Origin: Chrysophaeum taylorii
Taxonomy: Eukaryota; Sar; Pelagophyceae; Pelagomonadales; Pelagomonadaceae
DNA: 64,000 bases
NCBI GenBank assembly: GCA_029834535.1
Contig: JAQMWT010000373.1
Location: forward strand, 1 to 64,000
Direction: 5' to 3'
Below the pieces are notes generated by a model that made no database searches, was not told the origin of the DNA, and worked only from the letters and a program-made list of their open reading frames with translations. Position 1 is the stretch's first letter, and the number at the start of each line of letters is the position of its first letter. Made by a program: the position numbers and the translations under genes. This document shows positions 16,765 to 64,000 of the stretch, piece by piece.

Positions 16765-18394
16765 GGGAATCGATAGTCCAACTCCCGGACTATCAATCTC
16801 CTGTTTTTCGGCGGCGAGTCGGTTCGTAACGGTCGAGTGAGTGCGAAGCCGACGCATTTGTAGGCGAATATCCAGAGGAACACGGGTACCGCCGCGGGGT
16901 TCATTTTACGTGATTCGGATCGAACGGGGAGCGGAGTCACTACGACTCCACGAGGCGAAGCATTGTAAGACCTACCCAGGCAAAAAAAACAAGTAATCCC
17001 GAACCTAGCTCGCGCGAGGCAGACCACCTCCCTGACGGCGAGCGACAGCACCGGGAAGGCCGTCCACAGCCTTCACGCGCAAGGCAAATCCTACGGTAAG
17101 TCCAGCGCACCGGTACAGCGCGCAGTCAGACGGCTGCCGGCAATTGTCGTCTGACGAAAAAGAATACAACAAACGAGTTGTGAGCGTTCGGATTAACCTC
17201 ATTATCCGGGCAAAGCGCGGTCATGGCAGAAAGACCAATGACAGAACGACCGCAGTGGTTTCGGGACGCACAGGAGCGTCTGCAACGATTCAGTGCAGGG
17301 ACTCCATTTGCGTCTATTGGAAGAACACCGTTCAGTACGCCCTTTCAACGACCGGAAGCCGAGGAAAGCGGCCTCAGAAGAGAGGCAAGATCATCTGATA
17401 GCCTCGACAAGCCCCCAAGCGTGATCATCCTTCCGGATCAACGCGCCATCGAAGGGGGAGCTACGGTTGCGCCAGACGCAACTTCCAAGACCCCCGGGTG
17501 AGCCGACGTTCCCGTACGCACGACCCTACGAACGTGCGATGAATGCTACGGAGTCATCTCGAGCGGACCCCGAAGTTCCTACGGCGATGCGTGGACCAGA
17601 GAAGAGTGCACCTCCTAGGCCACCATCCGCGAACACGAGAGCTGCGGCAGATTTTCGAGTGGATACCGACCCCGAGATTCTGCAGGCCATCAACGAGCGA
17701 TTCGAGATGTGCCAGTCGCGTAGCTCGAGCAAGTCCTACTTGAAATTGAGCGCGCCCGCCGCGACGCGCAACAACAACAACGCTCAGAAGTGGAGCGGCA
17801 GCGGATCGACAACGATCGACTTCGACGAATGGTGGAGGAATCCACGCGGGTGCGTGCTCGAGAGGCACGGCCAGCCTCTCCGGATGCTACGCGTGTTACG
17901 CCCGAAGAGGATGACGCTGTATCGGCACTGACCGACGATCAGCCACCGCGAAGTCAACCGGAGCCTACCCCGCAGCATCACAATGACCCCGGTTCAGCAC
18001 GTCCTCGTAACGAAGAAGAGATACTTCAGATCAAGAAAGGAGCTGCTGGTATGACTCGTATCACGTTTTCGCCTCCCAATGGGCAAATTACTAAGGACCG
18101 GGATGAGGTGGACGCGTGGTGGATGCAGTTGCAGCGTAAGGTGGAAGGCGAGATCATGCCGCATGAAGGATGTGTCAACATGCAGCTAGAGACCACTGAG
18201 GACGTTTGTCATGCGACTTTCATAGCTGCTGTTGACGAGAATGAAGTCGAGGAGGATGTCTTAAGTGACAGACCTCCTTCTGAGCCACCTCCAGATGAAG
18301 AAGTGAAAAAAAAACACCAGAAATGGAGATGGAGGCGACTGATAAGGACCTGCTATCCAAGCACGCCTCCTTGGTTTGGATACCCATCACCTAC

Positions 18395-19230
18395 ACCTTT
18401 GTCGTCGTCTACTTTGCTGGCGCTGGAGGATCAACGTTGGGTATCCGGCGATGCAATGAGCTATATGGCAGTTCATTTCGCATTGTCTTGGCATTGGATG
18501 CTTGTGCCCAAGCCCGAGCCACCTTTGAGCTCAATTTTCCGAAGATTCCCTATGTTTTGCACGAGTTGGGGAAATCGCATCGTCGTACATACGACTTGGT
18601 GTTGTCGTATTTACATTCAGATTTTTGGAAGCATTCTTATTTTCACGCAAGTCCGCCGTGTATCTATGGGTCGACTTCCAATTTGCACTACGGGGACGCA
18701 CGCAAGGGCGCTACTATTACTTCTTGGGTCCTGCGTCATTTCCGCAACGCACCTTATGTAATTGGACGATGGACGCTCGAGCAGGAACCATCAGTGATCC
18801 CTTTTGTGCATCACCAATTTTATGTGCCGCGCATTGTCGATTTTTATAGTATCACACCGGAATTGCTGTGCACGCGCACGCGCCTACTTGCTTGCAATGT
18901 TCGCTTGGAACTGCCGTTATTATCGCGTGTACCACCGAATTTACGGGACCGTTTTGGGCCAGCGTTGGGATTTACAGGTGGTCACCCGCTCATTATAGTA
19001 AATAGTTTCTCATCTACGCGTCCGGCTATAGGCCCTGCCTTCACAGTGACGCGCAACAAATTGCAGGTGGGACCTCATTTCTCGCACACCCGTCCACTCA
19101 CGTTGCCAATGCACCAGGAAATTATGACCCTTCCTGCTACGTGGCAATGGGGTGAGAAAGTTTCAGAGACAGCAGCTATGAATATGCTTGGCAGTATGGT
19201 GCCACCCGCGACTATGACGCGGATCGCGCT
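18395..19230 (+). mobile_element. Cytosine-C5 DNA methyltransferase domain inside the Gypsy element
   Basis: This part of the Gypsy element shows the ordered motifs of C5 cytosine methyltransferases: motif I YFAGAGGSTLGI (18410-18445), the S-P-P-C catalytic loop of motif IV (about 18648-18662), a motif VI-like stretch (about 18770), motif VIII CTRTRLLA (about 18870), motif IX RPLTLPMHQEIMTLP (about 19090-19135) and motif X NMLGSMVPPAT (about 19180-19215). The family methylates cytosine at C5 with S-adenosylmethionine. A Pro/Ser/Ala-rich linker follows, then reverse transcriptase. Capture of such enzymes by retrotransposons has been reported in charophyte algae and dinoflagellates. A role in methylating or silencing element DNA is inference. 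The element is a fossil. Confidence 0.8.
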
Positions 19231-19756
19231 AGCAGTGCACAATTCGTTTGACCCTTCACTTGGAAATTTGGGTAAGTTGCGGAATATTGCGACGACTACG
19301 ATAGCCCAACCCGATCACCATATTCTACGGTTTTCACCTTTTGCTGTCGAGTCGCGCATTCCAACGCTCGACCCTGCCACTCGAAGTGTGTCATGGATCT
19401 CGCCCGATGACCTCTACTCTCCTGCGAGTCCTGCACCATCAGCTGCTGCCCCCACCACCCCGCCACCACCTTCGGTTACATCGCCTGGGACGGCTCCATC
19501 TTTTGCAGGGGGCACCGTCGCCACTGCTGTTATGCAGAGCAACCAAGCCGACAACCAGCCCTCCGCAACTGCTGAAGAAGAAGGCACCGCGAAGGAGCGA
19601 CCTGCGTATTTCAATAAGTACGACGTTCCGTGGGCGGACGCGCCTCACGACGAACATGGTCATACCTTTACCGGTGATGCCTCCTCATTTAGCGGGTCAG
19701 GAGAGCATGCAGGTCATCCCTCCGACCGTCGCGCAGGTCGAAGAGGTGATGACTGA

Positions 19757-22700
19757 ATTGGGTATTACAGAGCATCCTGCTTTAGATGATGACGAGAAGC
19801 TGATGATGAAGCATCTAATCTCGTATTCGTGGGCATTTTTCGATGATGTGATGAGACCTGTTGATTCACCTGAAGTGACGCTCCGGTTCAAAGAAGAGAA
19901 CCCGACTCCCGTCAAACTCTCGCCATATCGGTTGTCGAAAGAAAAGATTGAATGCTTGCGGATGCAGATTGAAGAATGGACCCGAGACGGAGTTATTCGT
20001 CCCGCGAATTCTCCATGGGGTTTCCCTATTTTGATGTTGCCTAAGAAAGGTGCTGAGCCTGGCACTTCCAATGCTTACAGGGCAGCTGTCGACCTACGGC
20101 GCCTCAATGCATTGCTCAAGGATGATAGCTGGCCGAGTGTGAGCATGGCTGACGCGTTGATGTTTCTCATCGACAAGTTCTGTCGTTCCAGTTTGGATAT
20201 TCGTTGGGGCTATCACAATTTACGATTGTCGCTAGATGCACAAGATGTGCTCTGGGAGCGTACAGCTACATGCGTCTACCTTTGGGAGTCAAACCAGCCG
20301 GAAGTTTGTTTTGCAAGCAGTTGAACACTGACTTGTCGAAATGGCTATATCGTGATCTCGTGGCATATATCGACGATATTCTCGCCGGTCACGCGGATAC
20401 AAAGAATCACTTGCAGTGCCTTGTGCAAGTTATTCCCCATCTCGCCTTGAAAGGGTACAGCGCCAAGATCAAGAAGATCCACTTCATGCAAGAAGTCATT
20501 GAGTTTTGGGTCATTTATCTACCCCGAACGGACTTCTTCCATCACCGAGGTCTTTAGAAGCCATCAGACACATGCCAATCCCTGGCACTTTGTCGGATGC
20601 TGACCCTAAGAAGCAAGTGCGGTCTTTCCTTGGAATGGGGAGTTTTGCCGGCGTTATGTAAGGAATTTTGCGAAGGTTGCAGGGCCATTAAGACAACTGA
20701 CGTTGCCGGACGTAAAATTCAGTGGACGAAAGAGTGTCAGGAAGCTTGGGATGCCATCATCGAGGATGTTGTCACTTCGAAGGGTGTCTACCATCCCGAC
20801 TACTCGTTGCCTTTCTACATTCGAACTGATGCTTCCGCGCATGGGCTGGGTGCTTACCTTGGTACCAGTCGTTGACGACGATGGAAGAGAAAGAATAGAA
20901 GAGATAGTTATTGAGTACTGGAGTCGAACCGTGCCTAAGTCGATGAGGAAGTACGATCCTCGGCGCTTGGAACTCCGCGCAGTACTCTCCGCTCTTGAAA
21001 ATGTCCGATTTTATATCGAAGGTCATCAGATGAAATTAGAGACCGATCATCGTAATTTGACGTTTCTTCGGGATTCGAATCATACGTCTGGACAGTTAGC
21101 ACGATGGGCTATGCGGTTTGCTGCGTTCGACCGGGAGCTCGGATACAAGCCTGGAAATTCCCCTGGCATGTGCATCCCGGATTGTCTGTCGCGCAACCCT
21201 ATCGACAAGTTGATCGAGAAAGACGAAGACGGGGAACTAATCAACGAAGCTTATTTTTGGATTTTCCAAGAAATCCCCACCGATGTACCTGGCACAGCTT
21301 GTTTCACCTTCTCTTCGGTGACGATGCCTATACCGACGGACAGCGGACCCACCGCAGCTATGGCAGCGGTTAGTACGCGACAGAACGTACAACCGCCTCA
21401 ATTATCGTACGTGTCTGAGCCAGTTGACTCCGTGTCGAACGTCTCCATTTTGCGGATCAAGCGGAGGATGAGATCACTCTTGATGAGATAGCGAAAGAAC
21501 AAGCTGAAGATGACACATGCAAGCGAATCAGACGAAATCTGGATTCTGAGCAGAAAGATCAAGACGAGCACTCATCCGTACCGTATGAAGTTGATAACAA
21601 CGTGTGTTGTATAAGGTCGATGATTCGGATTCTGAACGCCTTATTGTGGGCCCTCAGTCTATGCGAAAGCGTGTAATCGCCATGCATCACCGAGGATTGT
21701 TCGGAGGCCATGTAGGACGAGACTCCACAGCGAATCAAATCTTAGAACGGTATTGGTGGCCAAACGTCTCATCGTCAGTTAATGAGTTCGTCAATGCCTG
21801 CATTATTTGCCAGAAGATTCGATCCACCATGCCTAAGCGTCATGGCTTGCTCTGTCAACCGAATCGCGTCGGAGATTGCTATGTCCTAGGTATGGATCTG
21901 ATTGGACCTCTGCGAGGCGCTGACCTGTACACGTACATACTCGCGATGTACGATGCAGCGTCGCATTTCTTGAAATTGGCTCTGATCAACACCAAACATG
22001 ATTATTCAATTTTGAACGCGTTTGTGGACAAGATTTTACTTGAGGGATGTCTCCCACGGTGCATAGTCACGGATAATGGAAATGAGTTCGCGAACAGGTT
22101 ATTTCGCACGTTTGTTCGTCAATTCAACGTACGTTATCGTACTACCCTTCCGTATCACCCTCAGAGTAACCACACTGAACGTGTCAACCGATTTATCAAA
22201 GCCTTCTTGCGAGCTGCGATCGATGAACAGCGTCAGCCAGATTGGTCGAATTTCCTCCCATATGTGGCATTCATGTATAATAGGATGTACATTCCGGGAA
22301 CTAAGATTTCACCTTTCATGATGCGTACTGGCAAGCAACCCCTGTTACCACCACCCGATTTCAATCTTTTGAGTGAACAGCGTGTGATCTACCGCAATCA
22401 CGTCAACAGATTTTGATGGAATTTATGAATTTTATAGTCGACTCGTTACACGAGCTCATCGCAAAGCACAGGAGAGCCAAAAACTCAACTATGATGCCCA
22501 CCAAATTGACATCCAGTTTTCCCCAGGTGATTGATTATGTTCTGCGTTTCGTGCCTAAGACGCGCCACAAGCTACGGCCCATTTGGCGCGGGCCTTACAT
22601 AGTTACCAGAAAGATATCTCCCGTCGTTTACGAAATTCAGGACGTCAACGACGATGATGCTGAGTCGGTTGTAGTATCTGTACAACAACAGATTGTGCCT

Positions 22701-22919
22701 TTGAAAGTGCCAACCATCGACACTTCTTCAGCTCCTCTGCATTTACCTTCAGACCTGGACCGTTTCAAGCATGGTAAGTTCGTGATTTTCAGGGTTAAAG
22801 GACGATCCAACGCGTGGAAGAAGCGTATCTACGTTGCCGAAGTCTATGAAGAATATGATCACGACAATGATACAGTTGCGCTTCACTACTATACCGATTT
22901 GGGACCGCGCGATCGATGA
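19757..22919 (+). mobile_element. Pol region of the Gypsy element (RT, RNase H, integrase)
   Basis: Reverse transcriptase lies about 19790-20560 (PVKLSPYRLSKEKIECL, GVIRPANSPWGFPILM, AYIDDILAGHAD). RNase H follows about 20700-21200 (PFYIRTDASAHGLGAYLG, LETDHRNLTFL, the end CIPDCLSRNP). Integrase is about 21640-22410, with a Zn-finger region (HHRGLFGGH...CIICQ), the catalytic core (MDLIGPL, CIVTDNGNEF, HTERVNRF) and a C-terminal tail to 22919. A protease was not recognised. The order and motifs are Ty3/Gypsy. The region is broken. Confidence 0.9.
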
Positions 22920-57820: not shown

Positions 57821-57936
57821 GTGTGAATCAATAACACAACAGCGTTTTCTTTTAAATCACTAAAGGTGGTGGCAAAGTTAAGTGAACTAACTCTAGAATA
57901 GGGGGTACTAACCCTATTTCAGATTTTCTATCTCTA
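57821..57936 (-). repeat. Putative 3' LTR (or part) of the Copia element
   Basis: 116 bp beginning about 46 bp past the Copia coding end. Reading the minus strand it starts TAGAGATAGAAAA and ends ATTCACAC(A). It matches 15707-15818 in opposite orientation. The paired 5' LTR is outside the window, so the borders are approximate. Confidence 0.5.
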
Positions 57937-62699: not shown

Positions 62700-64000
62700 A
62701 CATAGTCCGCGTAAGAGGGACGTGCTTTGGACATAATGAGTCCCTTGGGGTCATCGAGATTAATTCGCCCTCGTGAGTCGATCGCGGCAAAGCCAGGATG
62801 CGAACGATTCATATAGTGGACCCAAGTGGACGGGCGCGAGCAGCTGTGAGCGGCGGGCAAAGAGGTGGTGTAGGCGACGACCAGAAAGGCGGTGCCCTTG
62901 GGAACATCCAGGGAAAAGGGGTGCGTTGGGGAGAAGACTGCGGGTTGGTGGGAACAGTCCAATATCTGAGGGGGCCTGGAATGTAGTGTGAGGGAGGCGC
63001 GCGGCAAGAAGCCACATGCGACGGCAGTAGCGGCGGTGCCGGTGATGGCTCCATCCAAATGGTAAGCACATTGAGACTCTGAGGCATGAAAACAGCGGAG
63101 GGTGTTCCAAGCGGTGAGAGTTGGGTGTTGCGATAAATGGTTGTGCAGCAATGTGAAAACCAGGAGGTGGGAAATGGACTCCATTGTGGCGTAGGGGGTG
63201 CCGTCGGCATCTAGACCGAGATCCGTGAAGGGCTTGGTGGAGCGTGCGAGCATTTGGCAGATGCGGGCGGGCATTCTCGGAAATCGAGAGTTTCGTGGCG
63301 TTGGCGGGCTTGTAGTAGTGGGTGGCCTTGTGCTGGTAGTAGTCCAATGTGGAGCGGGGCACTGTACCACGAAGGGCGGGTTTGGCGAGCCAGAGATCGT
63401 CAGGGATGGTGTGACTGGGGTCCAGGAGAGGAACCATGCTCGGAGGCGAGGTTAACCAAGTAGAGGCGGTTTTCTCGAGGTTGTAGCCGGTGAGCGGGTG
63501 TCGGGCATTCACAGCGAGATAGCGTGTCTTGCTGATGACATCACCAAAAGCAGAGGCATCGTAGACACCGGAGTGGCGGAAGTAGCCTAAGCGCTGATAA
63601 CCTTTTGCGAGTTGAGCATACTCGTGGTGAGTTCGGGGGTTGGGAGGTACGTTCTCGACACTGGCGTAGGTCGGGAGCGTGCAACGAACGAAGCGGATTT
63701 GTTCTTGGACGAAAAGGTCGGCGGTGACCGGAGTGGCATAGCCGTCGTATTCTTTCATTACACTCAGATGTTGACAGGGCAATGTAAAAACTGCCAGGTC
63801 GAGTGTAGGGAGTCGTATTTTGCCGGTTTGGAGTGCGGCATTGAGTTTTCTGAGGTCCGCATAGTGCTGGGCGTGCGGGAAGAGTTGTTGCGCACGGGTG
63901 CGCAGGATATCGTTGATTTCGCAGGTGACCACGACAGTAAGGCGTTTGTCGAATCGTTTGCGAATAGTGTCGAAACCTTCCTGGTGAAGTCCAACTGCAA
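62700..64000 (-). mobile_element. Cytosine-C5 DNA methyltransferase domain inside the Copia element (runs off the edge)
   Basis: From the right edge inward on the minus strand: a motif II/III-like VVVTCEIND...AQHYADLRKL, motif IV DLAVFTLPCQHLS with the catalytic Pro-Cys-Gln (about 63790), motif VI TYASVENVPP (about 63655), and motif VIII FGDVISKTRYLAVNARH (about 63540). Further in, a less certain C-terminal part follows. Motif I should lie at or beyond the edge. The motifs differ in wording from the Gypsy copy (PCQ/ENVPP versus SPPC), so the two are separate branches of the C5-methyltransferase family. It is part of a broken element. Confidence 0.8.

Follow-up and report, generated by a model that had tools for sequence, protein, structure and literature searches.

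A large, multi-copy family of Copia retrotransposons in the pelagophyte alga Chrysophaeum taylorii carries a complete C5-cytosine methyltransferase domain in Pol, between a putative protease and the integrase, and purifying selection has preserved this domain as the family expanded. The copy described here lies on the minus strand at the right end of the window, the 64,000-nucleotide stretch that we analyzed (positions 1-64,000 in a contig of 241,792 bases; genome 70.8 Mb), and the part of the element beyond the window was read from the continuation of the same contig, in contig numbering. About 9.5 kb is enclosed by direct repeats, an LTR pair around the methyltransferase, and the minus-strand order is 5′ LTR, putative gag, putative protease, methyltransferase, integrase, RVT_2 reverse transcriptase, RNase H region, and 3′ LTR (Table 1).

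Table 1. Features of the Copia element (contig numbering; the window ends at 64,000) and of other parts of the window
Feature	Position	Strand	Basis
5′ LTR core	67,391-67,302 (outside window)	-	84% identity to 57,845-57,936
Putative gag	about 67,038-65,083 (outside window)	-	Open frames by position; no Pfam match
Putative protease motif	64,692-64,660 (outside window)	-	Motif only; no Pfam match
C5-cytosine methyltransferase domain	about 64,007-62,434	-	PF00145 31.5 bits; three frames, broken; may extend slightly past 64,007
Methyltransferase motif I	64,007-63,969	-	Crosses window end
LPCQHLSV	63,782-63,759	-	Same frame as the next two rows
SVENVPPN	63,662-63,639	-	Same frame as the rows above and below
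SKTRYLAV	63,533-63,510	-	Same frame as the two rows above
Methyltransferase motif IX stretch	62,590-62,552	-
Methyltransferase motif X	next to 62,469	-
Integrase first part (zinc-binding motif, core)	62,235-61,603	-	rve 20.7 bits, E 5e-4, cut-off 32.6; WHRIHH, CSECKRC
Copia reverse transcriptase, two open frames	60,972-58,748	-	RVT_2 60.1 + 69.7 bits, cut-off 31.6
RNase H region (presumed)	58,599-57,982	-	Motifs CFTDASFADR, STMEAELIA; no Pfam match
3′ LTR matched core, exact ends approximate	57,936-57,845	-	84% identity to 67,302-67,391
Gypsy-type element	17,724-22,919	+
Gypsy methyltransferase frame	18,299-19,756	+	PF00145 32.5 bits
Intronless open frame, 4224 codons	39,843-52,517	+	HYDIN/CFAP65-type Ig-like domains matched over the first 1000 residues

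An integrase ahead of the reverse transcriptase, together with RVT_2, is the Copia arrangement, and LTRs, gag, and an aspartic protease are likewise Copia features. The element shows RVT_2 over the cut-off, the integrase before the reverse transcriptase, and the LTR pair, and the LTR probe also matches near other copies of the family. Other parts are assigned with less certainty: the rve score of the window-copy integrase is below the Pfam cut-off, and Pfam finds no match in any of five pieces, four of them from gag and protease and one the integrase part of family member L020 (197 aa). The putative gag and protease are therefore named by position and by motif, the protease from LIDGGAS, which is present in most aligned family rows; the RNase H region is presumed from its motifs only. 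No target-site duplication was recognized by eye in the flanks of the LTR pair, whose ends are approximate. Beyond the Copia element, at about 71.5-73.5 kb of the same contig (C373), a dense field of diverged repeats (L010) is present.

Within the methyltransferase, LPCQHLSV, SVENVPPN, and SKTRYLAV share one minus-strand frame, and their 412-aa open frame matches PF00145 with an E value of 1.7e-7 (cut-off 22 bits), bearing out the first-pass annotation, which had read PCQ, ENVPP, and TRYLAV as motifs of a C5 methyltransferase and assigned them to a Copia element; the LTRs indeed enclose the domain, with RVT_2 downstream. Extension to the right, which that annotation had proposed as a check, recovered both motif I and the 5′ LTR core. 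Because motif I crosses the window end and motifs IX and X lie below 62,700, the domain is longer than the 62,700-64,000 interval first marked. One part of the annotation did not stand: the domain had been placed where gag or protease would be expected, and it is actually between the putative protease and the integrase, with that protease and further coding sequence upstream of it.

We take the motifs to be I, IV, VI, VIII, IX, and X of C5 methyltransferases; motifs I, IV, VI, VIII, and X and the catalytic Cys were all found when 35 distinct family copies were aligned. NCBIfam dcm matches six of six family members (member 1 scores 33.8, below the cut-off of 100.65), as do two PHROG DNA methyltransferase families (116 and 363), and the highest PF00145 score given for another family copy is 46.1 bits (L003; cut-off 22). 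Since the motifs are kept across the family and the dcm and PHROG matches extend to all six members, sequence comparison confirms a real C5 methyltransferase rather than a chance resemblance. The window copy itself is dead and decayed, because frame changes break its methyltransferase: no single frame covers the protease motif, the initial and second portions of the methyltransferase, and the end of that domain. Its protease Asp is replaced by Glu, with Asp in 31 of 34 rows. A single-sequence fold of the Copia window piece was of no use (mean pLDDT 33.4).

The window protein has at least 113 matches in its own genome (best 95 of 731 candidates scored), which merge to at least 95 copies; contigs C25 and C521, and likewise C10 and C297, share matches whose coordinates are almost identical, so the assembly seems to include redundant contigs and the copy counts to be slightly inflated. 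PF00145 places number at least 57 (123 of 474 candidates scored), with 49 in the Copia family, two in host genes, and six others; among these six, C395 and C683:59,821 have the family reverse transcriptase downstream, and C670 has an LTR match on either side. Of the 95 methyltransferase copies, at least 44 have a same-strand reverse transcriptase 2.2-3.7 kb downstream (median 2.93 kb), and among the matches listed none has one upstream within 6 kb, four have one on the opposite strand within 6 kb, and 51 have no reverse transcriptase partner; conversely, 28 of 72 reverse transcriptase places have no methyltransferase match among those listed. Copy C96 has its methyltransferase and reverse transcriptase matches in register within a single open frame of 1952 aa, and the same holds for copy C314, with a frame of 1868 aa. 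The putative protease, methyltransferase, and integrase run without a stop for 1057 residues in L020 (part of C96) and for 1082 residues in L025 (C104). The LTR probe finds at least 40 places in the genome (40 of 298 candidates scored), with matches 3.2-4.1 kb upstream of 10 methyltransferase copies, the window copy's own included, and 5.1-6.6 kb downstream of six.

Other Copia families seem common in this genome, with at least 150 RVT_2 places (best 150 of 1670 candidates scored), and for only one of these best 150 do the listed matches include a methyltransferase in the 8 kb upstream.

Selection was measured on an alignment of 36 rows, representing 35 distinct copies (one was counted twice), in which DNA identity is 97.2% for the closest pair and 87.1% at the median (560 pairs). 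Pooled estimates used the 17 rows lacking stops and with few missing codons, although frame-shifted copies such as the window's are still included. The dN/dS of the whole methyltransferase is 0.28 (median pairwise) and 0.20 (pooled), with 0.19 and 0.17 for motifs I-VIII and 0.31 and 0.21 for the rest of the domain; the corresponding values are 0.23 and 0.21 for the protease part and 0.32 and 0.36 for the integrase, so that the methyltransferase, at about 0.2-0.3, is similar to its neighbors. The catalytic Cys is conserved in all 35 copies, and PCQ plus EN in 32. In these respects the domain behaves like a functional component of the element.

The window also contains a Gypsy-type element with a methyltransferase, followed by Integrase_H2C2 and rve, and, elsewhere, the long HYDIN/CFAP65-like open frame listed in Table 1. 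The Gypsy methyltransferase forms its own family with at least 99 matches in the genome (best 88 of 1107 candidates scored); it keeps SPPC, and EQEP rather than ENV occupies the place of motif VI. As for the Copia piece, its single-sequence fold was of no use (mean pLDDT 32.1). At least two further PF00145 genes belong to the host and, by sequence, resemble DNMT2 and DNMT5. One (C634, L001; 1498-2580, plus strand) is an intact 360-aa frame matching the solved DNMT2 structure 1g55 (E 3.9e-39), beside which an opposite-strand open frame is, by its look, presumably a light-harvesting protein; the other (C621, L002; 1006-3537, plus strand) lies in a 2086-aa open frame and matches the solved Rad8 protein 7r76 (E 3e-143), which we take to be Cryptococcus DNMT5. 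The host also encodes an aspartate-semialdehyde dehydrogenase whose closest counterpart beyond this genome, at 76% identity, is a transcript labeled Chrysocystis (taxid 284809, class Pelagophyceae), a single-gene sign of a pelagophyte host.

The Gypsy enzyme is, as judged by its sequence, different from the Copia enzyme and much diverged, in agreement with the first-pass annotation, which had found the two unlike. Profile comparison with hhalign gives the Copia-Gypsy pair a probability of 0.3%, a negative that is weak because the comparison of the Copia enzyme with the host DNMT2-like protein is equally blank (0.3%; 0.1% for the DNMT5-like protein). In a tree of 15 rows, from which DNMT1 and DNMT3 sequences were left out, and which joined the Copia and Gypsy domains with the host DNMT2- and DNMT5-like genes, Copia and Gypsy form separate clades, supported at 100/100 on a stem of 2.84 changes per column and at 100/99 on a stem of 2.47, respectively. 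Gypsy groups with host DNMT2 at 94/95 (not starred), with a long-branch warning from the program; the Copia enzyme is a long branch with no supported sister, and its pairing with a phage enzyme is among the flagged long branches. The AU test does not reject a single clade uniting the Copia and Gypsy enzymes (p-AU 0.145), nor does it reject joint clades of the Copia enzyme with the DNMT2-like or DNMT5-like host gene (p-AU 0.102 and 0.462). Two captures are likelier than one, not proven.

Outside this genome, the best matches of the Copia enzyme among the rows listed are phage and plasmid C5 methyltransferases at 22-30% identity (best E 9e-4 and 1e-3). Along with the dcm and PHROG matches, they point to prokaryotic and phage C5 methyltransferases as the nearest enzymes among those rows; these stand alone, whereas the Copia enzyme sits in Pol. 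Word- and length-limited searches of about 5.8 billion proteins yielded no relative, either at E 0.001 (7993 candidates scored) or at E 0.01 (7999 scored), and viral contigs yielded none either (39 pattern stretches). Among solved structures, the best match of the Copia alignment (A2) is 8yf3 at E 0.55, and the Gypsy alignment (A3) finds nothing of note (best E 0.7).

The best explanation, in which we place moderate confidence, is that this is a Pol-borne C5 methyltransferase of a Copia family that methylates the element's own cDNA. The enzyme, whether released by the protease or left attached to the integrase, would methylate cytosines of the new double-stranded cDNA in the particle, before or during integration; new copies would then enter the genome already marked, following an idea put forward for retrotransposon DNMTs (PMC5890265). 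Copies marked in this way might do less harm to the host, and the element might be lost more slowly. In the same source, DIRS-borne enzymes are reported to methylate CG in yeast, and LINE and Gypsy enzymes to be inactive there, a result its authors call inconclusive (PMC5890265).

Comparisons of CpG content and substitution in the Copia copies are mixed and give no clear CpG-decay signature, and self-methylation is thus not clearly supported by one. Among 269 non-independent pairs, third-position C/T differences, which are always synonymous, occur at 12.1% of CpG, 11.8% of CpC, 10.4% of CpT, and 5.9% of CpA; at all positions, transitions are somewhat commoner at CpG (8.0% vs 6.4% elsewhere) and transversions rarer (4.7% vs 6.2%). 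The CpG observed/expected ratio is 1.01 for the window element, with a median of 1.05 across 35 Copia loci, compared with 1.31-1.48 in five open frames taken for host genes and 0.94-1.40 in six stretches between them.

Other roles for the same enzyme seem less probable to us. It is unlikely that it acts mainly on host chromosomes, steering integration or shifting the host methylome in the element's favor; its place before the integrase in Pol would suit this, as would the long region separating motifs VIII and IX, which is under selection (dN/dS 0.21-0.31) and could read DNA, but nothing favors a host-chromosome target over cDNA methylation. More doubtful still is an RNA substrate such as the tRNA primer or RNA of the element itself: DNMT2, itself a C5 enzyme, works on tRNA (PMC3145265), and the lack of clear CpG decay would fit, yet the weak outside matches are prokaryotic and phage DNA methyltransferases, and hhalign finds nothing against the host DNMT2-like protein. 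We give little credence to a role in defense, in which the enzyme would protect or attack the nucleic acids of competitors, DNA viruses for example, and for which there is a general suggestion concerning transposon methylases (PMC6338049).

Finally, a host methyltransferase gene lying by chance beside a Copia fragment, the contrary outcome that the first-pass annotation had envisaged, would suggest itself only from the cut-off view that the window alone provides, and its probability is close to nil. The domain lies within the LTR pair, the methyltransferase and reverse transcriptase share one open frame in two copies, and the same order recurs in 44 copies; on these grounds we rejected it.

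Our literature search, conducted outside subscription papers, found no Copia element with a methyltransferase before the integrase. A linkage of methyltransferases with reverse transcriptases is reportedly credited to Iyer 2011. LINE, DIRS, and Gypsy elements that carry a methyltransferase are already known (PMC5890265), and methylase-bearing Gypsy and DIRS elements are mentioned in stramenopiles, among others (PMC6338049). KnitGypsy-Dnmt3 of the charophyte Klebsormidium nitens is likewise an LTR retrotransposon whose Pol includes a C5 methyltransferase, with key residues conserved and purifying selection (Ka/Ks below 0.2), although it is a Gypsy element with an enzyme of the DNMT3 family, whereas the present enzyme lies before the integrase in a Copia Pol (PMC5890265). 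SymbioDIRS-Dnmt3 and SymbioLINE-Dnmt of Symbiodinium are also many-copy retrotransposons with a C5 methyltransferase, with several families per genome, but they are DIRS and LINE elements of dinoflagellates, not Copia; the Symbiodinium Copia elements are reported to lack a DNMT (PMC5890265). One sentence published in 2025 attributes members of DNMT3 to "LTR Copia and DIRS" elements, crediting PMC5890265 (PMC12344493). This mention of Copia may be a slip, since the 2018 paper, in the text available, says Gypsy (PMC5890265); it is still a printed mention.

We regard as evenly balanced the proposal that, in one alga, the unrelated LTR superfamilies Copia and Gypsy separately acquired distinct C5 methyltransferases, the Copia enzyme being an undescribed lineage fixed between protease and integrase and able to act on cDNA within the particle just before integration. 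If this is true, the at least 95 Copia copies, set against the two host genes among the matches listed, would mean that retroelements supply most of this genome's methyltransferase genes, and their enzymes could shape the methylome of the alga. Methyltransferase capture is now extended to Copia and, apparently, to ochrophyte algae, and the domain has a fixed slot in Pol and is clearly under selection. Because methyltransferase-bearing Copia and Gypsy families coexist here, and a listed methyltransferase accompanies so few of the best RVT_2 places (1/150), this one genome probably allows families that have the enzyme to be set against families that lack it. It becomes a testable question why a transposon carries an enzyme that hosts use for transposon silencing.
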